Under the pieces are notes generated by a model. That model ran no database searches. It had not been told where the DNA came from and saw nothing but the letters and a program-made list of their open reading frames with translations. The translations under genes and the position numbers were made by a program. Source: Clostridia bacterium (GTDB lineage Bacteria; Bacillota; Clostridia; Oscillospirales; Acutalibacteraceae). From it: 46,894 bases of DNA. Where the stretch lies: assembly GCA_017416345.1 (NCBI GenBank), contig JAFQCR010000036.1:1-46894 (forward strand), read 5' to 3'. Position 1 is the first letter of the stretch, and every line of letters starts with the position of its first letter. Below are positions 2 through 10,982 of this stretch, one piece after another.

Positions 2-2617
2 GTATACAGCGGAATCGAAAAAGAGCTTGTAAATAAAGGAACGGCTACCGGCGGTTCGATGCAGTATGCCCTTGGCGCAGACGGCACAACGGCCCCTGCA
101 AGCGGCTGGAGCACCTATGTCCCTGTGGGCAGGGATGCAGGCACCTATTACGTCTGGTATAAGGTGGTCGGCGACGAGAATCACAACGACGTTGCTCCTG
201 CCTGTGTTGCCGTAACCATTGCGAAGAAGCAGATCACAAAGCCTGCGGCAGACAACAGCACCTTTACCTATAACGGCAGTTATCAGACTTATGCAATGAA
301 CGGAGATCCTGCGTTCATCATTGATAACAACGTGCAGAAGAATGCGGGCAGCTATACCGTTACCGCTACACTGCAGGACACCGCCAACTACGAGTGGGCA
401 GACGGTACAACTGCGGTGCTGGAGTACACCTTTAAGATCGAGCAAAAGGAAATCGGTATCTCCTGGAGCAATACCGCGCTTACCTACAACGGAGCGGCAC
501 AGAGACCCACAGCAACCGCCACGGGAGTTGTGACAGGTGAGCAAATCGCTCTGCTGCTCAACGCACCCGAAACCAACGCCGGAAGCTACACCGCAATGGT
601 ACAGGGTATTGACGGTGAAGCGGCGCAAAACTACAAGCTTCCCGCTGGCAGAAGCACCACGTTTACCATTGAGCAGCAGGCCCTTACTATCGTTTGGGGC
701 AACAGCAGCTTTACCTATGACGGTGCAGAAAAGTTCCCGGCCTTTAACGTAGAAGGCATCTGGAATGCAGATGATGTCCAGGTTACCAAAGAAGGCGCAC
801 AGACAAATGCAGGTGAATATACCGCAGAGATATCCGGTCTTACCGGTACAGCCGCAGACAACTATAAGCTCACCGGCACTCTGGCAAAAGCATTTGTTAT
901 TAATAAAGCAGAGCAAGCCGCACCAACCGGACTTTCCAAAACTGATGAAACCATCTCCAAAAAAGCAGACGGTACGATTAGTGGAATTTCTTCCAACATG
1001 GAATACCGCAAGGAAGGCGAAGCTACCTATGAAGCTGTGAACAGCACTGTGCTTGAAAATCTTGTTGCAGGAAAGTATTATGTACGTTATGCCGCAGATA
1101 ACAACCACAATGTATCTTCTGATGCGGAAATTACTATTGGTGCCGGCAGAAAGCTAACTGTTACCGTTCCGCAAAATCAGATTGGATACACACTGATAAC
1201 GACTACACCGGAACTTGATTATTATGGTTCTATCCGTGTGGAATTCAAATTGCTTCCCGGCTATTCTATGACCGAGAACTTTGAAATCTACAACGGAACA
1301 GAACCTATCTGGCAACACTTTAACCAGCAGACGGGCATTTTAGAGTTAACCTTTGTTGCAAGTGATTTTGATTTGACTGTTGCAGGTGTTGCAGATATTT
1401 CCGCACCGGTTGCAGAGATCGACATTAAGAACAATAAGTGGACGAACTTCTGGAACGACATTACCTTTGGCCTGTTCTTTAACGAAACTCAAGACGTTAC
1501 CATCACTGCAGCCGATGCGGGCAGCGGCGTGAATACGATTCAGTATTATCTGGCAGACGATGAACTGGAAATTGATGAAGTAAGAGCAATCACTGATTGG
1601 GTTGACTATAACGGTACATTTAAGATTGATCCCAACAACCACTATGTTGTCTACGCCAAGATTACCGACAATGCAGGCAACACCCTGTATATAAACTCTG
1701 ACGGTATTGTTTTAGACAACATTGCACCTACGCTTGAAGGTATTGAGAATGGTAAAACCTATTACGGCGACCTTACCGTGATTAAATCTGATGAGCAGTT
1801 CTACGACATTAAGGTTGTAACACTTGACGGAGAACCAATGGGCTTTGCCGAAGGTACTTACGGTCTTATTCCTGCCGATAATGCAGAGCATATTGTTGTG
1901 GTTGAAGATCACGCAGGCAACAAGACCACCTACACTGTGACGGTTATGAAGAACTATACCGTAACCTACAAGGCTGACGGTGAGCCGATCTCTACCGAAA
2001 CCGTTGGACACGGCAAGGACGCAAACCTTCCCGCTGTTCCTGCAAAGAACGGATACGTTGGCAAGTGGGACAGCGACGGCAAGAACATCACCGGTGATAC
2101 AACAATTACGGTGGTTTACACGGAAATTCCTGTTGTAAAGCCCAATGAAGTGAAACCGGAGGATAAGACCGACCTTGAGGATACCAAGAAGCAGCTTAAA
2201 GATATGCTGAAGGATCACTCCTACACCGATGAAGATAAAAAGAACATCCAAGATGCCATTGACGATATCGACGATGCTCTTGAAGTGATCGGCAATGTAG
2301 AAGCGGTTGAGGAATTGATCGACAAGCTCCCCGACCCCATTAAGAAGGACGACGAGCCTGCCATCAAAGCAGCAGACGATGCCTACAATGCACTCACCGA
2401 CTATGAGAAATCTCTTGTAGACGAGGGTGCAAAGAAGGCTCTGGACGATGCCAAGGTAGCTCTCGCAGAACTTAACAAGCCTGCTGACACCGACATTCCT
2501 CAGACCGGAGATAACAGCAATATAGCATTGTGGATCGCACTTCTCTTCATCAGCGGTGGTGCAGTTATCACACTGACCGTAGTTGACAGAAAGAGAAGAA
2601 TGGCAAACAATAGATAA
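2..2617 (+). CDS. Sortase-anchored surface protein with MBG-like repeats (5' end outside window)
   Basis: The frame is open to the left edge, so this is the C-terminal part of a larger exported protein. Numbered from the first internal ATG (59), three repeats with the F/LTYNG or FTYDGA start and a NAGxYT middle lie at about residues 57-285, resembling MBG-type bacterial Ig-like domains. An Ig-like part with the DNAGN and DHAGNKTTYTV signatures follows (about 430-650), then an InlB/B-repeat-like stretch ending TITVVYTE, then an acidic helical region. The C-terminus carries IPQTGD (an LPXTG variant), a hydrophobic segment and a basic tail RKRRMANNR, so sortase should attach it to peptidoglycan. 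It is probably a multidomain stalk or adhesin; no catalytic domain is visible. A terminator follows directly. Confidence 0.85.
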   Translation, partial: VYSGIEKELVNKGTATGGSMQYALGADGTTAPASGWSTYVPVGRDAGTYYVWYKVVGDENHNDVAPACVAVTIAKKQITKPAADNSTFTYNGSYQTYAMNGDPAFIIDNNVQKNAGSYTVTATLQDTANYEWADGTTAVLEYTFKIEQKEIGISWSNTALTYNGAAQRPTATATGVVTGEQIALLLNAPETNAGSYTAMVQGIDGEAAQNYKLPAGRSTTFTIEQQALTIVWGNSSFTYDGAEKFPAFNVEGIWNADDVQVTKEGAQTNAGEYTAEISGLTGTAADNYKLTGTLAKAFVINKAEQAAPTGLSKTDETISKKADGTISGISSNMEYRKEGEATYEAVNSTVLENLVAGKYYVRYAADNNHNVSSDAEITIGAGRKLTVTVPQNQIGYTLITTTPELDYYGSIRVEFKLLPGYSMTENFEIYNGTEPIWQHFNQQTGILELTFVASDFDLTVAGVADISAPVAEIDIKNNKWTNFWNDITFGLFFNETQDVTITAADAGSGVNTIQYYLADDELEIDEVRAITDWVDYNGTFKIDPNNHYVVYAKITDNAGNTLYINSDGIVLDNIAPTLEGIENGKTYYGDLTVIKSDEQFYDIKVVTLDGEPMGFAEGTYGLIPADNAEHIVVVEDHAGNKTTYTVTVMKNYTVTYKADGEPISTETVGHGKDANLPAVPAKNGYVGKWDSDGKNITGDTTITVVYTEIPVVKPNEVKPEDKTDLEDTKKQLKDMLKDHSYTDEDKKNIQDAIDDIDDALEVIGNVEAVEELIDKLPDPIKKDDEPAIKAADDAYNALTDYEKSLVDEGAKKALDDAKVALAELNKPADTDIPQTGDNSNIALWIALLFISGGAVITLTVVDRKRRMANNR

Positions 2618-2632
2618 ATAGAGATTAACCCT

Positions 2633-2668
2633 AAAGGGCGATGACAGAATCCGTCATCGCCCTTTTCA
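2633..2668 (+). terminator. Rho-independent terminator after the surface protein
   Basis: A perfect stem of about 13 bp (AAAGGGCGATGAC against GTCATCGCCCTTT) with a 7-nt loop, followed by a short T run. Confidence 0.85.
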
Positions 2669-2727
2669 CATCTCAATTTGAAATAAAAAAACAATTGGAA
2701 ATTCTACTCATAATTTCTACAAAAAGT

Positions 2728-2743
2728 GTGATACTAATATCAC
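2728..2743 (+). promoter_or_regulatory. Inverted repeat upstream of spoVT
   Basis: GTGATA-CTAA-TATCAC lies about 30 bp before the spoVT start. It overlaps GATACTA, which resembles a sporulation sigma (SigF/SigG type) -10 element, with CATAA a plausible -35 about 16-17 bp upstream. It could be the promoter, an autoregulatory SpoVT site, or both. Sequence match only. Confidence 0.35.
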
Positions 2744-2773
2744 ATTAAAATTGTAAAAAGAGGAGATTAATAT

Positions 2774-3316
2774 ATGAAAGCAACAGGTATAGTTAGAAGA
2801 ATCGACGACCTTGGTCGTGTGGTTATTCCGAAGGAGATACGCCGTGTGCTCCGCATAAGGGACGGTGATCCGCTTGAGATCTATACGGCGGGGGACGGCG
2901 AGGTCATCTTCAAAAAATATTCGCCCATCGGCGAGCTTGCGCCCATCGCCGTGCAGTATGCCGAGGCCATGATAAAGCATACCTCGTGCCCCGTTATCAT
3001 ATGCGACCGTGACCATTGCATCGCCGCTGCAGGCATCACTCGCCGTGAGGTGCTTGAGCGCCGTGTTTCGCCCGAATTAGAGGAGCTGGTCGAGTCCCGT
3101 GCATCGTATTTTAAGGGTGTGTCCTCGGGAGAAGCCCCCAAGGTGCTGGAGGGTTTTGACCGCACGGCCTCGGTGATCGTGCCGATCTTAAGCGCAGGCG
3201 ATCTGACGGGAGCCGTCATAATGCTGACCCCCGACGACGGCGCCAACCCCACCGACACCGACATATCGCTGTCCAAGGTCGCCGCATCGTTTTTGGGCAA
3301 GCAGATGGAAGAATGA
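2774..3316 (+). CDS. spoVT: Stage V sporulation protein T (AbrB-type transition regulator)
   Basis: 180 aa, the usual SpoVT length. The N-terminal swapped-hairpin AbrB/MazE DNA-binding domain (residues 1-50) starts MKATGIVRRIDDLGRVVIPK and continues with the typical EIRRVLRIRDGDPLEI. Residues 55-178 form the GAF-like ligand domain of this family. SpoVT is a forespore-specific DNA-binding regulator that adjusts SigG-dependent genes during spore maturation. The start follows AGAGGAG at good spacing. Other sporulation genes (spoVAC here, ylbJ/yqfC/yqfD later) support an endospore former. Confidence 0.95.
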   Translation: MKATGIVRRIDDLGRVVIPKEIRRVLRIRDGDPLEIYTAGDGEVIFKKYSPIGELAPIAVQYAEAMIKHTSCPVIICDRDHCIAAAGITRREVLERRVSPELEELVESRASYFKGVSSGEAPKVLEGFDRTASVIVPILSAGDLTGAVIMLTPDDGANPTDTDISLSKVAASFLGKQMEE

Positions 3317-3704
3317 CCGACCAACAAAAAATGAATGATGAATAGTGAATATTGAATAATGAGAATTCCGGTGTCGGTGTTGCTGACAAAAAACGGACGG
3401 CCATTGGCCGCCCCTACGACAAGGTAAATTGACATTTGTAGGGGACGGCGCCCACGACGTCCCGAACACCGGCTTTCAGAGGCTCTCCCGTTGGGAGAGC
3501 TCCCGACGGATGTCGGGCGAGAGGGCTCGCAAGCCTTCTTGTGAGTTTTGATATATTGTAGGGAAGGCATTTATGCCTTCCGAATCGTGCGCACACATAG
3601 GTGCGCCCCTACGGAAAGCCAATTGATGTTTGTATGGGAGGGCCTCTGCGCCCTCCCAAAAAGCAGCTTATGTCGGCAAAGAAGGTAATTTCAAGAGGTG
3701 TTTT
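3317..3704. repeat. Intergenic mosaic of palindromic repeats
   Basis: No gene is visible. After an AT-rich stretch built on repeated ATGAAT/GTGAAT words, a string of short palindromes follows: one ending CCCCTAC (3395-3417), one starting GTAGGGGACGGCG (3437), a two-hairpin cassette at 3478-3526 (GGCTCTCCC-GTTG-GGAGAGC then CCCGAC-GGAT-GTCGGG), GTAGGGAAGGCATTTATGCC (3558), and GCGCAC...GTGCGCCCCTAC (3588-3612). Open frames on either strand are by-products of the repeats. The end of the stretch carries the spoVAC ribosome-binding site. Confidence 0.75.
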
Positions 3705-4151
3705 ATGAATATGAACGATCCGCAAGGGTACTCAAAAATGGTGGCGGCGGCATCCAAACCGTCGCCCATTGTAAAGGACACCGTCCGTGCGTTTTTGGTC
3801 GGCGGTGGGATATGCGTGCTGGGACAACTGCTGCTGACGGCCTATCTGCCGCTTTTTGAGGACGAGCAAAGTGCCAAAACGCTTGTATCGGTCACGCTGA
3901 TCTTTGCGGCGGCGGTGCTGACCGGCTTCGGCGTGTTTGACAAGATAGCCAAATTCTCGGGAGCAGGCACGCTGGTGCCCATCACCGGCTTTGCCAACTC
4001 GATGGTTTCCCCTGCCATAGAATACAAAACCGAAGGCTTCATATTAGGGGTTGGTGCCAATATGTTCAAGATCGCAGGCCCTGTCATCGTCTACGGCACG
4101 GTTGCGAGTGTGGTTTACGGGGTTATTTATTGGATAACAATATTGCTTTAG
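3705..4151 (+). CDS. spoVAC: Stage V sporulation protein AC
   Basis: 148 aa, the normal SpoVAC size, with four hydrophobic segments and the conserved C-terminal GFILGVGANMFKIAGPVIV region. SpoVAC is an inner-membrane part of the SpoVA channel that moves dipicolinic acid into the forespore and out at germination. ATG 3705 is chosen because AAGAGGTG lies just upstream; an upstream start would read into the palindromic repeats. spoVAD and spoVAE, the usual operon partners, do not follow. Instead there is a hairpin element and accessory genes, and two further copies of this gene's last ~40 codons lie at 8215 and 9683. Confidence 0.93.
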   Translation: MNMNDPQGYSKMVAAASKPSPIVKDTVRAFLVGGGICVLGQLLLTAYLPLFEDEQSAKTLVSVTLIFAAAVLTGFGVFDKIAKFSGAGTLVPITGFANSMVSPAIEYKTEGFILGVGANMFKIAGPVIVYGTVASVVYGVIYWITILL

Positions 4152-4152
4152 A

Positions 4153-4565
4153 GAAAGGCCCCCTTGCCTAAAGGGGGCTGGATTTTTGCGAAGCAAAAAG
4201 ACTGAGGGAGTTGCGATTAGGGATAATTCGCCCAAAACAGTGTCTTTTTGCGGTATAATGCGTCAAAAGCCCACGGTACGCGTCAGCGTTACCGTGGGCT
4301 TTTTCCTTTTATACCAACAAAAATTCATTTGTTTTGGGTGCTATGCAGTTTTGTAGGATGAAATTTGAAGTTGCTGCGAAGTTGAAAAATGCAGGAATAC
4401 TGCCGTATTTCAAGGCTTTTCAACGAGCGGCGGCTCAAATTTCACCGAAAAACCGATTTCTCCCTAATCGCAACTCCCTTGGGGGATTGATTTGTGTTCT
4501 CTCAATCCCTCCGTCAAAAATCAAAGATTTTTGCCACTTCCCTTTAGGCAAGGGAGGCTAAAAAA
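4153..4565. repeat. Two inverted two-hairpin cassettes interrupted by a MITE
   Basis: The left cassette (4155-4204) has stem GGCCCCC...GGGGGC, then a second stem TTTTTGCGAAGCAAAAA. The right cassette (about 4496-4561) is the same design in reverse: GGGAGGC preceded by its partner, a second hairpin AAAAATCAAAGATTTTT, and CAATCCCTCCGTC. Together they form an imperfect inverted repeat like the one at 9808-9951. A 275-bp MITE (4205-4479) sits between the arms, evidently inserted later. Confidence 0.65.
4205..4479. mobile_element. 275-bp MITE, copy 1
   Basis: It is bounded by 19-bp terminal inverted repeats AGGGAGTTGCGATTAGGGA (4205-4223) and TCCCTAATCGCAACTCCCT (4461-4479), a perfect match. Inside is a strong palindrome, AAGCCCACGGTA...TACCGTGGGCTT, near 4269-4302. 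A second copy at 16480-16754 has the same length and about eight mismatches by eye. There is no transposase. A short open frame inside (from 4334) exists in both copies but has no recognisable protein features. Target-site duplication is unclear. Confidence 0.85.
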
Positions 4566-4593
4566 GGCTTGACCGTTATGGGCAAGCCTTTCT
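4564..4593 (-). terminator. Terminator for the AraC-type gene
   Basis: AAAGGCTTG and CAAGCCTTT pair around a short loop. The left arm lies just past the stop codon and the right arm overlaps the last codons of the minus-strand gene. T-rich sequence follows on the minus strand. A near-twin lies at 9955-9982. Confidence 0.65.
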
Positions 4594-5385
4594 TGTAGTC
4601 ATATTTCTGTAATTCTGTGGGGAAAGCCCTGTCTTTGACTTGAAAAACTTTGAAAAAGATAACACATCTTGAAAGCCTACCGAATTTGCAATGCACGTGA
4701 CCGGCATATTTGTTGTTTTTAAAAGATTCTCTGCGTATTGAAGCTTTTTATCCAAAATGTATTGCTTGGGTGAGGTGAATAACCGTTTTTTGAAGATGGT
4801 GAAAAGATATGGCTGACTGACACCCAAAAACTCGGTGAGCTCTTTTACCGTTATCGGAAGATATAGGTTAGCGTTTACGTATTTCTCGGCGGCTTCTATA
4901 TATACCTCTGCATTTGTTTTCTGAGAGAGGCTTACAGCTATTTTTGGATGATGTTTGAAAATCCGCAAAAAGGTTTCGAGCATTTCAAAAGGGTTCACGA
5001 CATAAGTATTTTTCTTTATCAGGTCTGTGGACAGTTCTTTTACGACCTCTTTATAATCATAACTGAAAATGTTTGTGTTTTTATCCGCACCGAAAAGCCC
5101 AAAAATTTCCGACATTTTTTTATCGTCTGAAATTACCCACAAAAACTCCCACGGATTTTCCTTGTCGGGATAATAATGCTCACGCATATTTGGAGTTATT
5201 AAAAAGCCTTGACCTGCACAAACGGGGTTTCCGTTAAAATATCCTTTCCCCGATATGACGTAGTGAATGATATATAGGTTTCTCACACCAACGCCAAACC
5301 TTGTGACAGATGGGTCGGAGGCATAGCCTATGTTTGTTATGTTAAGAAGAGGACACTCTGAATCGGAAATAACACTATATCTCAT
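4576..5385 (-). CDS. AraC-family transcriptional regulator
   Basis: 269 aa. The N-terminal ~150 residues match the cupin-like AraC ligand domain (IIHYVISGKGYFNG, then GQGFLITPN). The C-terminal ~100 residues carry two helix-turn-helix motifs, LTEFLGVSQPYLFTIFKKR and IANSVGFQDVLSFSKFFKSK, ending in the usual SPQNYR. It is divergent from the glycyl radical enzyme gene and probably activates it in response to a substrate, a common arrangement for sugar or small-molecule catabolism. ATG 5385 is preferred over GTG 5394 because AAGAGG is correctly spaced for it. The gene is AT-richer than spoVAC, consistent with acquisition. Confidence 0.9.
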   Translation of the reverse strand: MRYSVISDSECPLLNITNIGYASDPSVTRFGVGVRNLYIIHYVISGKGYFNGNPVCAGQGFLITPNMREHYYPDKENPWEFLWVISDDKKMSEIFGLFGADKNTNIFSYDYKEVVKELSTDLIKKNTYVVNPFEMLETFLRIFKHHPKIAVSLSQKTNAEVYIEAAEKYVNANLYLPITVKELTEFLGVSQPYLFTIFKKRLFTSPKQYILDKKLQYAENLLKTTNMPVTCIANSVGFQDVLSFSKFFKSKTGLSPQNYRNMTTRKACP

Positions 5386-5454
5386 TTTAAACACCTCTTT
5401 ATTATGATTTTACCATACACTATTATGAAAATGCAATAGCAAAATACCAATCAA

Positions 5455-5469
5455 AACGATACAATCGTT
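5455..5469. promoter_or_regulatory. Inverted repeat in the AraC/GRE divergent region
   Basis: AACGAT-ACA-ATCGTT lies in the 114 bp between the divergent genes, about 30 bp before the proposed glycyl radical enzyme start. It is a candidate operator for the AraC-type protein. Sequence symmetry only. Confidence 0.35.
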
Positions 5470-5499
5470 ATAAATTACAAAGGGGTGTGTGTTGTGATT

Positions 5500-7459
5500 A
5501 TGAAAAAGTTGCTATATATTGGTGAACATGCGGCTGCAGGGTTGTTTGAAAAACCGCAGGGCAGCCTTTTTTTTGAGAAAAGCTATGGGTTTACGTCGCT
5601 TTTATGAGAATTGCCAACTTCCGGAATATACAGGTAATTCGTTATATCCGTCGGGCAGAGTAGTATCTCCCAATTATATGAGCGGTCTTCCGGTTAATTA
5701 TAAAAAGATTAAAGCCCAAGACGAAGAAATATTAAAACTCATACAAAAAGACTTTTGCTGTTATCAGTCAAGCGTGCCTGAAGAACATACCGTTGCTGGC
5801 AATATGTATACACACTCTATGCCAAACTATGAACGTATTCTAAGAGAGGGTTTCTTATCGTATATTCCACGTATAGAGAAAATCAAAGATAGCGATATGC
5901 GTGAGGGCTTGATGCATTTGATTAACGGAATTGAATGTTATATTAAACGATGTGTTGCATATCTGGAGTCGGTCGGAGCTGACGGTAACCTTATTTCGGC
6001 ATTAAAACAGGTGCCGATGCATCCTGCAAGGGATCTATATGAAGCGGTTGTCTGTTGGAATTTTGTCTTATATCTTGACGGCTGCGATAATTTGGGCTGT
6101 GTGGCGAGCGGGCTATATCCTTACTATAAAGGGGAAGATATAATAAATCTGCTCCGAAACCTATTTGATAATTTGGATGTAAACGACGGTTATACTATGG
6201 CTTTGGGAATGGATTACAATCCTTTGACATTACAATGCCTTGAGGCCGTCAAGGGAAAACGCCGACCAATGATTGAACTGTTTGTAGACCAAAATACTCC
6301 CAATGAAATCTGGGAGAAGGCTTTCGAGAGCATTCGAACATCAAACGGCCAACCTGCATTTTATAATCCGCAGGTGTTACTTGGTGGATTACAAAAGAAA
6401 TTTAAAAATATTCGCGATGAGGACATAAAGAAGTTTTGCGGTGGCGGATGCACTGAAGCCATGCTGGCAGGGCTTTCCAACGTGGGTTCTCTTGATGCAG
6501 GAATCAATCTGCTGCTGATTCTTGAAAAATGTATAAAAACCGAACTTGTAATAGCCAAGGACTTTGACGACTTTTATATGAAGTATATTAACGCAGTAAA
6601 AGAGGTTGTTGACACAGTCACAACAGAAATCGGCAATTCTCAAACAGAGAGAGCAAAGCACAATCCGTTGCCTATGCGCACTTTGCTTATTGATGATTGC
6701 ATTGATAACGGCCTTGATTATAATAACGGTGGCGCAAGATATAAATGGAGCATTATAAATTTTGCGGGAATGATTAATGTTATTGATGCAATGCTGGTTA
6801 TTCGTGATTATATTTTTGAAAATAATATTTTTAGTGCGACAGAATTGATAGCAAAGCTTGAAAAAAATGATAAAGATTTTCTTGTCCGGTTGAGAAATCA
6901 CAGTGTTAGCTTTGGCAGTGATAATTCTGATGCAAATTCCTTCTCAAATAAAATATCAACCGACATTTTTTCAATGCTTGATGATAAAAAGCCTCCTTTT
7001 GGTGAAGGCTTCTTGCCGGCGTCTATCCAGTTTATGTCACAAGTGAAAGCAGGAAAAAAGGTTGGTGCCACACCCGACGGAAGAGAAGCAGGTGCACCGC
7101 TTTGTGATTCCCTAGCTGCTATATTCGGAAAAGATACCAAGGGCCCTACCGCATTGCTGAACAGCGTCACTTCCTTAAATTTAAATCGCGCGCTTGGCGT
7201 GCCGGTACTGAATTTTAACATCGATCCTGATTTTAAGGATGAGGTACTAAAGGCCTTGATTTTGGGTTATATGAAGCAGGGTGGAATTCAAATACAAATC
7301 ACTTGTATTTCAAGAGAAATGTTGGAAGAGGCCTATAGGAATCCGGAAGAACATAAAAACCTTGTTGTGCGAGTAGGCGGATATTCTGAGTATTTCTATC
7401 GTTTGAACGATGAATTGAAGCGAATGGTTATAGAGCGGACGATTCAAAATGAGGTGTGA
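5500..7459 (+). CDS. Glycyl radical enzyme of unknown substrate, probable early frameshift
   Basis: The pyruvate formate-lyase superfamily is indicated by a C-terminal glycyl-radical loop RVGGYSEYF (Gly codon 7379-7381) and the active-site loop FCGGGCTEAML (Cys codon 6449-6451). GCTE, rather than the Cys-Cys of pyruvate formate-lyase, resembles the GCxE of dehydratases and C-N lyases, so a radical elimination is more likely than pyruvate cleavage. The long open frame begins at TTG 5519 with no ribosome-binding site. ATG 5500, behind AGGGGTG, reads MKKLLYIGEHAAAGLFEKPQ but is in another frame and stops 35 codons on. Dropping one T from the T8 run (5567-5574) joins the two into a continuous protein of about 652 aa. 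The alternative start ATG 5585 would give a shortened but intact protein. The activase gene overlaps by 4 bp. Confidence 0.85.
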
Positions 7460-8193
7460 TTTTGCAAGGAAAGATTATAAATATTACACGCTTTTGCACC
7501 GATGACGGACCGGGGATACGAACTACTGTGTTTCTAAAAGGCTGTCCACTCAGATGTATTTGGTGCCATAATCCCGAATCGCAAAAATCGGATGAAGAAC
7601 AATATGTAAACGGAGAAATAGTCGGCAAAACAATTTCTGTGCAAGAGATATTTGATGAAATCTTGAAGGACAAGGTTTTCTACGAAACTTCTGGAGGTGG
7701 AGTAACGATTTCCGGAGGAGAGCCGTTGTATCAGCCGGAATTTACAACAGAAATTTTAAGGCTTTGCAAAGAAAGTAATCTACATACCTGTATTGAAACC
7801 AGTGGTTTTGCGATAGAAAGCACCATTCGAAAAGTCTTAAAATACTGTGATTTGGTGCTTTTTGATATAAAAGAAACGGATGCCAAAAAGCTTTTGGAAT
7901 ATACAGGCGCTACACTAAATATTGTTTTGCAGAATCTAAAAATTGTCAATGATATGAAAATACCGTTTGTAATCAGATTGCCAATTATCCCCGGTATTAA
8001 TGACCGGAATGAGCACTTTTTAAAAGTGAAGGCAATTGCGGAAGGGTTAGTGTTTTGCCGCGGTATTGAGATTATGCCGTATCACAAATTAGGGGAATAT
8101 AAGTACCAACAGTTAGGCAAAGAGTATCTTTGCCGGAACATTGTTGAGCCATCCAAGGATGATGTAGAAAAATGGAAAAGTTTATTAAAATGA
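7456..8193 (+). CDS. Glycyl radical enzyme activating enzyme (radical SAM)
   Basis: 245 aa. It carries the radical SAM cluster motif CPLRCIWC (CxxxCxxC), the family start FCTDDGPGIRTTVFLKGC, SGGEP (SAM binding), and ETSG and RLPIIPG strands. It would install the glycyl radical on the upstream enzyme. It lacks the ferredoxin-like insert with extra cysteines seen in many dehydratase activases, so it resembles compact PflA-like activases. The GTG start overlaps the upstream TGA (GTGTGA), which implies translational coupling and a 1:1 pair. A spoVAC 3' remnant begins about 20 bp after the stop. Confidence 0.93.
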   Translation: MILQGKIINITRFCTDDGPGIRTTVFLKGCPLRCIWCHNPESQKSDEEQYVNGEIVGKTISVQEIFDEILKDKVFYETSGGGVTISGGEPLYQPEFTTEILRLCKESNLHTCIETSGFAIESTIRKVLKYCDLVLFDIKETDAKKLLEYTGATLNIVLQNLKIVNDMKIPFVIRLPIIPGINDRNEHFLKVKAIAEGLVFCRGIEIMPYHKLGEYKYQQLGKEYLCRNIVEPSKDDVEKWKSLLK

Positions 8194-8214
8194 CTGTGTC
8201 TTATATTGACAGCA

Positions 8215-8337
8215 GCAGAAGGATTTATCTTAGGTGTTGGTGCAAATATGTTCAAGATCGCAGGACCGGTTATTGTTTACGGTACCGTAGCAAGTGTTAT
8301 TTACGGAATCATTTATTATATATGTACGATAGTGTAG
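8215..8337 (+). pseudogene. spoVAC 3'-end remnant 1 (40 codons)
   Basis: Read from 8215, the frame gives AEGFILGVGANMFKIAGPVI and continues in register with the SpoVAC C-terminus to a stop at 8335-8337. There is no start codon or ribosome-binding site. It differs from the intact gene (3705-4151) mostly at synonymous positions, with one identical run of about 20 bp (AATATGTTCAAGATCGCAGG). Homology begins at the same codon as in remnant 2. The TAG stop lies inside a GTAGGGGCGGC palindrome. Confidence 0.85.
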
Positions 8338-8360
8338 GGGCGGCAGAATGCCGCCCCTAC
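8334..8360. repeat. GTAGGGG...CCCCTAC palindrome
   Basis: A 27-bp near-perfect palindrome, GTAGGGGCGGC then AGAAT then GCCGCCCCTAC. It overlaps the stop codon of the spoVAC remnant and belongs to the same family as the palindromes near 3.4, 32.6-33.2 and 37.5-37.95 kb. Confidence 0.8.
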
Positions 8361-8384
8361 ATTGTTGTCTCTTCAGCAAAGAAT

Positions 8385-8411
8385 AAACCCCCGGTTGAAC
8401 CGGGGGTTTTG
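8385..8411. terminator. Bidirectional terminator
   Basis: AAACCCCCGGTT-GA-ACCGGGGGTTTT has a strong GC stem with A and T tracts on both sides. It is placed between the activase/remnant and the convergent esterase gene, so it can serve both strands. Confidence 0.85.
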
Positions 8412-8422
8412 ATTTAAAAAAA

Positions 8423-9484
8423 TTACAAACCAATTTCGTGGTAAAGCTTTTCTATCACTTTTGCAATACGGTAAAATCCAAGGTCATTTGGATGAATTCC
8501 TTCAACGGTACAGATCTCGCGGTCTTTTTTGCCAAACAAGGTTTCACCGTCAATAAAATAAACGTTATTATCGCCGTTTTCACGCGCCTTTAAATAGGAT
8601 TTATATATTACTTCCCTACGTTTATCCGAATTGGGAAAATTATCAAAGCAAGGAACAGACATAAAAACAATCGGCACATCTTTTTTTGCCTTGCGATAAA
8701 TTTGATAAAAAGGAAAATGTGTTTTTTCAAGATATTCTGCATCAGGAGCATTACCGTCATATGCCATAAAGAATAAGCTGCAATCAATTCCTGTCAGATA
8801 TTCCGCCATCAAAGGCTCGCCCTTGCAATTACCCGAGAATCCTAAATTTATAAAATCAATATTATTCCATTTTGACAGCATAGCAGTATATGAGCAATCG
8901 GGACGGGAGGCGCAGCCACCTTGGTCTACTGATGCGCCATAATACAGAATCGGTGCAATGTTGCGATACTTTTCGGGTTCATATAAAGTAGCCGAGGAAT
9001 CTAAATATATTTTTAAATCGCTGACACCGTTATACAAAGGAAAAAACAGGATGTATTCGTGTACGCCCTCGCCCTCAATTTTCACCTCACCTGTATATCC
9101 GTTTTTCTCATCGTGATTCGGACGGAAAACCGAAACGGTTTTGTAGGTATCTTCCAGTTTTTCCACCAAAGCAAACCCACAGCTGCCGGTGAGCGGCATA
9201 TGGGGCATTTGGACCAGAGAAGGATATGTAACAGAAATACCAATGGTGGATGAATTTGTAGAGAATCGTATTCTGCCGCCTGATGTATGGGTTGAAAGAT
9301 AGCCGACGCTGTCACTTACTTTCTTGGCAACACAATTATCCATTCTGACGAATTGATGCAAGTCTTCATCATAAAAAACACCGTAAAGATCAAATTTATC
9401 GCAGGGAATGGTATAACATGCTTTGTCGGTGGCTTTTTTAAACTCTTCTTTTTTGAAATTTATATCTATTTTTTCCATTTTCAT
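8423..9484 (-). CDS. SGNH/GDSL hydrolase with N-terminal GxDLY-type domain
   Basis: 353 aa. The N-terminal part (about 20-180) carries DLYGVFYDE and a beta-rich region resembling the GxDLY domain found ahead of GDSL hydrolases. The hydrolase part has YGASVDQGG (Ser block), NLGFSGNCKGEP (Gly block), YDGNAP (Asn block) and EGIHPNDLG (catalytic His). Such proteins are usually intracellular carbohydrate or acyl esterases. ATG 9484 is chosen because AAGGAGG lies at correct spacing; a longer frame to 9514 has none. There is no signal peptide. It sits between the two spoVAC remnants as the single cargo gene of the second module. Its link to the glycyl radical enzyme is positional only. Confidence 0.87.
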   Translation of the reverse strand: MKMEKIDINFKKEEFKKATDKACYTIPCDKFDLYGVFYDEDLHQFVRMDNCVAKKVSDSVGYLSTHTSGGRIRFSTNSSTIGISVTYPSLVQMPHMPLTGSCGFALVEKLEDTYKTVSVFRPNHDEKNGYTGEVKIEGEGVHEYILFFPLYNGVSDLKIYLDSSATLYEPEKYRNIAPILYYGASVDQGGCASRPDCSYTAMLSKWNNIDFINLGFSGNCKGEPLMAEYLTGIDCSLFFMAYDGNAPDAEYLEKTHFPFYQIYRKAKKDVPIVFMSVPCFDNFPNSDKRREVIYKSYLKARENGDNNVYFIDGETLFGKKDREICTVEGIHPNDLGFYRIAKVIEKLYHEIGL

Positions 9485-9682
9485 ATTATTGTTCCTCCTT
9501 GGAGTAACCGTCATCGTATATATTTTGACTCTGTTAAAAATGTTTTCCGGTCTTAATATTTTATTATATCATACCGAGTACATCTCCGCAAATATTATAT
9601 AGTATTACCGTCTTAATGTAAAGGTTTTTCCTTAATTGTGTCTTAATGAAACTGCAAATGAATGAGTCCTACTTGCACACAA

Positions 9683-9805
9683 GCAGAGGGATTCATCCCG
9701 GGTGTTGGCACGAAGATGTTTACCATCGCAGGACCTGTGATTGTGTACGGCGTGGTGGCAAGTGTGATTTATGGGGTTATTTATTGGATTACGACATTGT
9801 TTTGA
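9683..9805 (+). pseudogene. spoVAC 3'-end remnant 2 (40 codons)
   Basis: Read from 9683: AEGFIPGVGTKMFTIAGPVI, continuing to VIYGVIYWITTLF and a stop at 9803-9805. It is the same part of SpoVAC as remnant 1 and homology starts at the same codon. There is no upstream start. It is more diverged from the intact gene than remnant 1, with substitutions at otherwise conserved positions (L to P, A/N to T/K, K to T), so it is the oldest or most foreign copy. A two-hairpin cassette pair follows, as it does after the intact spoVAC. Confidence 0.85.
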
Positions 9806-9807
9806 TA

Positions 9808-9951
9808 AAAAGGCCCCCTTGTGTAAAGGGGGCTCCGTCCGCAGGACGGTGGGGGATTGTAACCTTGCGAGAAAACGGCAATTTTTCTTGACAAAACAAT
9901 CCCTCCGTTTCGCTTTCTCTCAACACCTCCCTTTACACAAGGGAGGCTAAA
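9808..9951. repeat. Inverted pair of two-hairpin cassettes
   Basis: The left arm has GGCCCCCTTGTGTAAAGGGGGC then CCGTCC-GCA-GGACGG then GGGGGATTGT. The right arm is its approximate reverse complement, with CAATCCCTCCG, then CTCCC-TTTACACAA-GGGAGG. The arms can pair with each other across about 40 bp as well as fold locally. It is the uninterrupted counterpart of 4153-4565. Confidence 0.7.
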
Positions 9952-9983: not shown

Positions 9984-10856
9984 TTACGTATTTTCGGTGG
10001 CGGTAAGCCCTGTGAGCTGTTCAAAGGCGGGGAGCTCGTAGCAGGGGAACCAGATGCCCCATTGCTCGCCACTGAGGTCAAGCTCCAGAATGTGGTACGA
10101 CTTGCAGTAAAAGCAGTCATACTCGTCGGTGGTGAGCTTATACTGCCTGTATTTCTCGGAATCGAGGTCGTCGTCCTTGTTCCAGCTTTCCACCCTTATT
10201 TTCTTTTTGACTGTGGTGATGGCCTTAAGGCCGGATAAGGGAAACGCATATTTGCCGTCCATGTTTGCCAGATACAGATTTTCGGAATCGGCAAAGATGC
10301 GGACGATGGGATTAAAATACGGTGCTATCACCGCCGAATTTTCCTGCACCTTGATCTCGCCGTTTTTGACCTTGTAGAAAAAGTTGAGGATATCGACCTC
10401 TTTGGCATCGGGCGGTACGGCAAGCTCGGCAAAAATACTGTCGTGAATGCGGTCCATATCGTCAAGCGTTTGTTGGCTCTCGTCGGCTGACAGCATCTCT
10501 TTTTCCTTGCGTTTGGACAAAATTTCAAGAATGACGTAAACGACCAGACAGGCTACGCCCAGCCATATAAGCCACGAGGCATTTCGGTAGACCGTTGAAA
10601 GAGTTATCTCCTCATCCTCCAATATTGCCTTGGCAATACCCAGCACGACCGCTGCGCCTACAACTCCACAGGCCGCCTTTCCGATGCGAAGACCCAAGGG
10701 AAGCTTGCTTTGGTCGATGGTCTCCTCAAAGGCTTCCTGAGAGCGCTCCAGCGCCTCGGATAACGCAGGTGACGGCTTTTGTACCAAAAATTTCTCGCCG
10801 TTCAGCGTTTCGTTGTTTTTGTCGGTCGTTCGGTCGATTCCCAAAAAAGGTTTCAT
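9984..10856 (-). CDS. Unrecognised two-TM membrane protein
   Basis: 290 aa, not recognised. A polar N-terminus is followed by two hydrophobic segments (about 56-78, GKAACGVVGAAVVLGIAKAI, and 91-111, WLIWLGVACLVVYVILEIL). A soluble C-terminal half of about 170 residues has mixed beta character (FADSENLYLANMDGKYAFPL, DLSGEQWGIWFPCYELPAF), which could be a PH-like sensor fold; that is a guess. The start follows GAGGGGA. A likely promoter on this strand is TTTACT-N17-TATCAT around 10922-10950. It was probably the convergent neighbour of spoVAC before the 4.2-9.7 kb material arrived. Confidence 0.75.
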   Translation of the reverse strand: MKPFLGIDRTTDKNNETLNGEKFLVQKPSPALSEALERSQEAFEETIDQSKLPLGLRIGKAACGVVGAAVVLGIAKAILEDEEITLSTVYRNASWLIWLGVACLVVYVILEILSKRKEKEMLSADESQQTLDDMDRIHDSIFAELAVPPDAKEVDILNFFYKVKNGEIKVQENSAVIAPYFNPIVRIFADSENLYLANMDGKYAFPLSGLKAITTVKKKIRVESWNKDDDLDSEKYRQYKLTTDEYDCFYCKSYHILELDLSGEQWGIWFPCYELPAFEQLTGLTATENT

Positions 10857-10899: not shown

Positions 10900-10982
10900 T
10901 CCTCATATTAAGCAAATGATACCATATGCAAAAATAAAAGTAAAGATAAGATGGGGTTTATTACAGCCTTGAAAAATTTTTA

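Follow-up and report, generated by a model that had tools for sequence, protein, structure and literature searches.

The window analysed here, a 46,894-nt stretch of a contig from a Clostridia bacterium of the family Acutalibacteraceae (GCA_017416345.1, JAFQCR010000036.1), carries an intact copy of the sporulation gene spoVAC, behind which lie 2 blocks of other genes, each ending in a copy of only the last 40 spoVAC codons (Table 1). A sequence-only reading of this DNA had described these copies, here called tails, at 8215-8337 and 9683-9805, and had them start their homology at one codon. Both statements are borne out, and the start can be set precisely at a GA dinucleotide, found at 4032 in the intact gene and at 8218 and 9686 in the tails; the re-made end of spoVAC is the last 40 codons counted from the GA at 4032. 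Both tails are open to a stop, and the modules measure 4186 bp (A) and 1468 bp (B) from GA to GA. We think it likely that these blocks form a short array of mobile gene cassettes that entered the 3' part of spoVAC by site-specific insertion and were mobilised in trans by elements carrying a triplet of serine recombinases.

Table 1. Features of the spoVAC locus and its flank (positions in the window)
Feature	Position	Strand	Evidence or remark
Intact spoVAC, platform gene	3705..4151	+	TIGR02838 175.1 bits (cut-off 164); GA at 4032
Cassette A, multi-gene, untypical	4152..8214	.	Glycyl radical enzyme and activase sense, AraC antisense
AraC-type regulator, cassette A cargo	4576..5394	-	HTH_18 1e-18, AraC_binding 7.1e-07
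Glycyl radical enzyme, cassette A cargo	5519..7459	+	PFL-like 9.7e-40, Gly_radical 4.6e-17; start codon uncertain
Glycyl radical enzyme activase, cassette A cargo	7456..8193	+	TIGR02494 2.7e-79, above cut-off
P arm and GA, junction 1	8198..8222	+	GTCTTA-N14-GAAGG, subtype A with 1 mismatch
Displaced spoVAC tail 1	8215..8337	+	GA at 8218
Cassette B, typical	8338..9682	.	Single antisense gene with shared promoter
SGNH/GDSL esterase, cassette B cargo	8423..9514	-	Lipase_GDSL_3 4.9e-30, GxDLY 4.3e-26
Cassette B promoter (predicted)	9594..9622	-	TTTACA-17-TATAAT, pattern common to 74/121 antisense cassettes
P arm and GA, junction 2	9666..9690	+	GTCCTA-N14-GAGGG, near subtype C
Displaced spoVAC tail 2	9683..9805	+	GA at 9686
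290-aa protein, no known family	9984..10856	-	Promoter-like TTTACT-17-TATCAT at 10916-10944

Junctions behind spoVAC

A SpoVAC search over 398 genomes of the family returned extra short matches in several of them, and in 27 such genomes searched more closely many matches span only about residues 107-147. Loci were taken from regions of family genomes, from a motif scan of a genome collection (101 stretches, mostly Oscillospiraceae or Clostridia metagenome-assembled genomes, many from ruminant gut) and from a viral collection (1 contig). With contained copies removed, overlapping loci kept and distinct contexts counted separately, this gave 129 loci, 128 of which have matches: 204 tail matches (192 distinct) and 82 intact spoVAC genes. 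Tails starting at GA number 157 (149 distinct), and the site counts leave out 43 distinct tail matches without a GA(A/G)GG start, which are degenerate, partial or out of register.

The hexamer GTCCTA stands exactly 20 nt 5' of GA in 138 of the 149 distinct tails starting GA(A/G)GG, or 147 if 1 mismatch is allowed, and in none of the 82 intact spoVAC genes; the background is 0.25%. In 160 tails the codon preceding GA is GCA, at 94-97% per base, whereas intact genes vary at this codon; from GA onward the base profiles of tails and intact genes match. This places the boundary, and with it the exchange point, at the GA dinucleotide in codon 110 of spoVAC. The junction consensus is TTGACANNAGCA-GA(A/G)GG, and the P arm preceding GA, in which each cassette ends on its right side, falls into subtypes A (TGTGTCCTATATTGACAGCA), which is the commonest, B (GGGTCCTAAGTTGACACAA and like sequences) and C (GGGTCCTACTTGACCACAA). 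A shared core proposed earlier, AATATGTTCAAGATCGCAGG, is not the exchange point, as it lies about 30 bp further downstream. Nor could the suggestion be upheld that the terminators after the intact gene and tail 2 allow a single ancestral junction to be rebuilt: GGCTTGACC occurs at most 70 nt from the stop in 36/149 tails and 29/82 intact genes, and a terminator so common near both marks no single junction.

With at most 1 mismatch, the P-GA junction is found in 26 of the 398 family genomes and 16 of 135 genera, and a reversed-pattern control gave 0. In loci with an intact spoVAC, 89 of 91 distinct GA-starting tails lie downstream of the intact gene on the same strand; in one of the 2 exceptions, L065, the intact gene is split by Ns, and the other is considered below. 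Other cargo ending in spoVAC tails, which the earlier reading proposed to look for in relatives, is abundant, contrary to a condition that would have refuted that reading. Of the empty sites that it also proposed to look for, none facing the same neighbour was shown: 3 relatives of the same genus have spoVAC with no tails detected, but in the stretches covered spoVT and the 290-aa gene are not beside it. One genome, G313, has 2 intact spoVAC genes (L059 and L060), and a tail array accompanies each of them. In L133, L156/L233, L231, L234 and L235 the expected tail start is occupied by a recurrent stretch like CTGTCGACCGCGGCCACTCGCTCAGGTCGC, which may be an insertion into tails.

Cassettes, cargo and a probable exchange of tails

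Of 155 closed cassettes, 14 were dropped because they had zero length or were exact duplicates, and cassettes at the edge of a locus were not counted either. The 141 unique ones that remain, from 89 loci, are 969 bp long at the median (5-95% range 468-4107). A single open reading frame (ORF) of at least 60 aa is present in 102 of them. The largest ORF runs antisense to spoVAC in 121 cassettes and in the sense direction in 19, and 1 cassette has none (antisense versus sense, p=2e-19); in the 25 cassettes of at least 1.8 kb the orientations are even, at 13 to 12. The pattern TTTAC[A/T]-17-TATAAT occurs inside P, at a nearly fixed distance and on the strand of the antisense gene, in 74 of the 121 antisense cassettes, where 0.02 would be expected from mononucleotide shuffles, and in 0 of the 19 sense cassettes. 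Cassette B of the window is thus of the typical kind.

The cargo is diverse: its 213 ORFs of 80 aa or more, some of which are surely spurious, fall into 139 clusters. Pfam and PADLOC scans of 112 cargo proteins (chosen from these ORFs plus one) yielded oxidoreductases, dehydrogenases, glycosidases, HAD hydrolases and AraC, MerR and LysR regulators, most families appearing once, and, among the PADLOC matches listed (25 of 128 families), type I restriction, specificity, methylase and several candidate-defence models; one 12-kb cassette encodes a type I restriction subunit. Seven of 10 recurrent cargo proteins have no Pfam match at E 0.01. In the window, domain matches agree with the cargo named earlier, AraC, a glycyl radical enzyme and its activase in module A and an SGNH esterase in module B. 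The PFL-like match of the glycyl radical enzyme starts only at residue 234, which leaves a short or divergent N-terminal part. Relatives of this enzyme (67%) and of the AraC protein (58%) are present in L068, from another array genome.

Cassettes more than 90% identical are present in different loci. The clearest pair is L070/L159. Its spoVAC bodies have an identity of 0.58 across 240 nt ungapped and of 0.72 across the last 120 bp, but from GA onward the 2 sequences share an identical tail and a 99.4% identical cassette, the identity ending just after GCAGAGGG at the right tail. Since this identity spans GA to GA, one unit was transferred, tail included. An insertion behind the stop codon that duplicates its target can be rejected, as the L070/L159 cassette carries its own tail (most other pairs do not).

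The tails appear to have a further history after insertion. In 40 cassette pairs at least 80% identical (pairs that are not independent), the excess identity of left tails is 0.01 at GA and climbs to 0.14 at the stop, and right tails show no significant cassette-specific excess. Among the 57 of 82 intact genes that passed the filter, pairwise identities of the 2 body halves correlate at 0.30 and those of body and tail segments at 0.05-0.20, a weak correlation that is expected if gene ends get replaced. Within arrays, tail bp 9-45 are most like the host's own spoVAC. We infer that, once inserted, imported spoVAC ends are swapped with host copies through homologous recombination or gene conversion. 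The earlier impression that the tails differ as if they came from other species is therefore part of the story but only a partial explanation, because the tails seem to be exchanged once inserted.

Recombinase triplets and the proposed movement of cassettes

In the viral-collection contig (L099), 3 tandem large serine recombinases lie directly 5' of a P-GA-spoVAC tail. Related triplets are found in L231, L238, L250, L247, L255, L256, L257 and L262 (the first gene being cut by the contig end in L238, L250 and L262), and in 9/9 loci of this clade the spoVAC tail follows 27-320 bp past the stop of the third gene. As L099 and L231 are nearly identical, the 9 loci represent 8 lineages. The proteins carry Resolvase and Recombinase domains and group by position in the triplet; the second is similar to TnpX and to further serine recombinases whose structure is known, and TndX likewise cuts at GA, according to an excerpt of PMC3672683. 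The P subtypes at triplet loci are B and C, and 9/141 cassettes have an extended P arm like that of integrative and conjugative elements (ICEs).

The other element end was recovered in genomes G399 and G401, where the spoVAC body passes through GA into TGAG[T/C]GTGATATAATAGGACTC and a triplet is held on other contigs. With GA at both element ends, this is site-specific insertion with a very short core, and, as the spoVAC body runs into GA-P', the large element truncates spoVAC. Its attP would be the inverted arm pair GTCCTA-N14-GA-N14-TAGGAC. In G139 a displaced tail is followed by spoVAD, and about 40 kb of upstream sequence did not reveal the spoVAC end of the element. Genes of the elements encode a RecD2-like helicase, a ParM-like protein and a protein with a clear NlpC/P60 match, and the larger triplet elements are probably conjugative. 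A more distant large-serine triplet in L248 (9500-10209, genome G033) ends before TTGACACGTTCA-GA, followed by spoVT from its 9th residue; since it adjoins spoVT at GA, a sister element may target this other sporulation gene near its 5' end.

The anatomy, the breakpoints, the presence of one cassette in different genomes and the association of triplets with this same site can be read directly in these sequences, and they suggest how arrays might grow. A cassette circle carrying P-GA-tail would recombine with the B-GA-tail site of spoVAC, giving B-GA-new tail-cargo-P-GA-old tail, in which the gene is whole and the insertion site renewed. As this product again holds an intact B-GA-tail site, cassettes would pile up at the spoVAC-proximal end. 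The enzyme would be the large serine recombinase triplet on larger elements whose P arm is similar and whose target in spoVAC is the same GA. The cassettes, not autonomous themselves, would be moved by it in trans, and their arrays could outlast the loss of the element, as in clusters of attC sites lacking integrases (CALINs). Large elements truncate spoVAC, on this scheme, because they have a P' arm and not a tail at the left end. The idea of the sequence-only reading that insertion at the 3' end of spoVAC restores the gene gains support from the precise recurrent junction, from alternative cargo in many genomes, from the cassette and tail shared by L070 and L159 and from recombinases beside the same junction elsewhere. 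Its remark that no integrase is present stands for the triplet in the window's genome, but triplets do lie beside the same junction in 9 other loci.

Several observations weigh against movement by the triplet. Among the triplet loci GTCCTA-N14-GA is exact in 6 and inexact in 3 (L256, with 1 mismatch, L247 and L262), and no triplet with the commonest P subtype, A, was found. Triplets are rare, with one true relative in the 398 family genomes (2 more matches have 36% identity) and one in 394 genomes of the order. The window's genome has none; its only large serine recombinase is 25% identical to the triplet over part of its length, and as it is not a close relative we rejected it as the enzyme. 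The conjugation matches of the elements are weak, TrbL_4 and PrgI falling below the cut-off. The second exception to the downstream position of tails is L102, where a tail lies upstream of the intact spoVAC of its locus, and among 17 non-independent pairs of cassettes with at least 93% identity, L070/L159 alone keeps its left tail throughout. No circle or reaction was observed; both are inferred, as are the order of growth and an enzyme acting on subtype A. Finally, pairing P-GA-B' with B-GA-B' differs from the textbook reaction of attP with attB. The integrase of the best-characterised serine integrative and mobilizable element inserts and excises without a directionality factor (PMC5704250, excerpt), and since it needs none, a non-textbook pairing of sites is conceivable.

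The rarity of triplets beside common arrays, and their absence with subtype A, would also fit cassettes that another recombinase moves at the GA junction, the triplet elements merely sharing the site. We consider this unlikely, as all 9 loci of the triplet clade sit at this site and have P subtypes B and C, and as a profile search with few seeds over 1.30 Mb around arrays found no other large serine recombinase and a tyrosine recombinase at one place (L059, found with 2 Xer-like seeds). A tyrosine integrase near arrays was rejected as the enzyme because it occurs at this one place only; the window's genome has 2 Phage_integrase proteins, both on another contig. Quite unlikely, in our view, is that the blocks have no cassette system of their own and are decayed remnants of serine-recombinase ICEs or mobilizable elements, accreted in tandem at spoVAC in the manner of cis-mobilizable elements (CIMEs). 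Triplet elements do integrate at spoVAC, some blocks, such as cassette A, are multi-gene, and excerpts of PMC5704250 and PMC3146451 describe tandem accretion as well as islands without a recombinase at a single att site. Decay would not, however, yield cassettes of which 102/141 have a single ORF, mostly antisense and with one shared promoter in a fixed place; in addition, the left junction is of the spoVAC type with no P' arm, and discrete near-identical cassettes recur across loci.

That left tails look exchanged along their length might suggest truncated tandem spoVAC paralogues, or cassettes that entered purely by homologous recombination at the 3' end. Both are very improbable. Tails share a common GA start beside a conserved P arm at fixed spacing and 137/157 remain open until a stop at codon 38-43, so they are neither truncated tandem paralogues nor decayed full-length ones, which the earlier reading had named as a case that would refute it. 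Purely homologous insertion is rejected because right tails lack the significant excess that a single crossover in the tail would predict, and both L070/L159 breaks fall at GA. An assembly artefact might be suspected where nearly all source genomes are metagenome assemblies and several contigs end inside arrays, but one fixed junction across 16 of 135 genera with a control of 0, and near-identical cassettes in separate assemblies, make it extremely improbable. Movement of the cassettes in trans by the triplet is the reading we retain.

Known systems and neighbouring features

Integrons are the textbook natural stackers of single genes as cassettes. Integrons and CALINs, as described in an excerpt of PMC8618304, share with the spoVAC loci arrays of small cassettes, usually with one ORF, a site per cassette and a renewed platform, cargo mostly of unknown function, and arrays without a resident recombinase. 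The resemblance in tandem single-ORF cassettes (102/141 here) is functional only. No tyrosine integron integrase stands at the arrays in the 1.30 Mb searched, where 2 Xer-like seeds gave a hit at L059 only, and no attC-like site was seen, single-strand folding not having been examined. Unlike integron cassettes, those at spoVAC are linked with large serine recombinases, use the 3' end of a protein gene as platform and carry antisense cargo with a shared promoter of their own. The system is integron-like and not an integron, as enzyme and site differ.

Staphylococcal cassette chromosome (SCC) elements with ccr also have serine recombinases, insert at the 3' end of a chromosomal gene and form composite tandem elements like the spoVAC arrays. 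They differ in target gene and sites, SCC inserting at rlmH/orfX and the present system, with its triplet of large recombinases, at spoVAC. The ssrA islands of Dehalococcoides likewise combine a serine recombinase with tandem islands behind one gene and repeated gene 3' ends, and 15 of them have no integration module, according to an excerpt of PMC3146451, a paper in which SCC elements are compared as well. They differ in the ssrA target, a 20-bp repeat, DsiB/DsiA and larger multi-gene islands, whereas the spoVAC arrays repeat 120 bp of coding sequence and have single-gene cassettes with a common promoter. Streptococcal ICEs with triplet serine integrases have 3 tandem integrases grouping by position, gene-disrupting insertion and very short direct repeats, but their targets are mutT, traG and hsdM, and the excerpt of PMC4701971 does not mention cassette arrays. 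Such a triplet is present here on the large elements, not on cassettes or in the window's genome. CIMEs, as excerpted from PMC5704250, also lack their own recombinase, retain att sites and accrete in tandem; they keep attL and attR, whereas spoVAC cassettes have an attR-like right end and a left end of the spoVAC-type B-GA-tail, not B-GA-P'.

Stacked serine-recombinase islands with repeated gene ends (ssrA, SCC), serine triplets on ICEs and tandem accretion are thus already known, as far as these excerpts go. Among the matches listed from open PMC papers, none describes such single-gene cassette arrays or spoVAC as a target. We are evenly divided on whether this is a second, independently evolved integron-like system, in which a serine triplet on separate elements captures single-gene expression cassettes with a common promoter and shuffles them at the 3' end of a sporulation gene, arrays persist without it, and each tail is an ordered fossil of a former gene end. 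If so, gene-cassette capture arose more than once, here with serine recombinases in anaerobic gut Firmicutes, and a reservoir of mostly unknown small proteins opens up. Repeated insertion into a gene would be tolerable when every cassette brings the gene's end, the displaced tails would be an ordered insertion record, and sites and recombinases can be tested directly in laboratory strains.

The 290-aa gene at 9984-10856 had been taken as the flank that an empty site would bring next to spoVAC. It is not a safe fixed flank, since relatives of its product, 48-56% identical, are cassette cargo in L062, L066, L073, L132, L233 and L236, and it is absent from the stretches examined of the 3 same-genus genomes. 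The protein has no Pfam match at E 0.01, and no P site or tail lies beside the promoter-like sequence of its gene. It is possibly the cargo of a third cassette whose right end was lost.

The stretches 4156-4559, after the intact gene, and 9811-9948, after tail 2, have like inverted ends (AGGCCCCCTTG..TAAAGGG and CCCTTTA..CAAGGGAGGCT), which are also seen after tails in L060, L067, L068 and L074; they are possibly a small mobile repeat. A large protein encoded at 59-2617, upstream of spoVT, weakly matches MBG_2, Flg_new and OmpL47-type domains.

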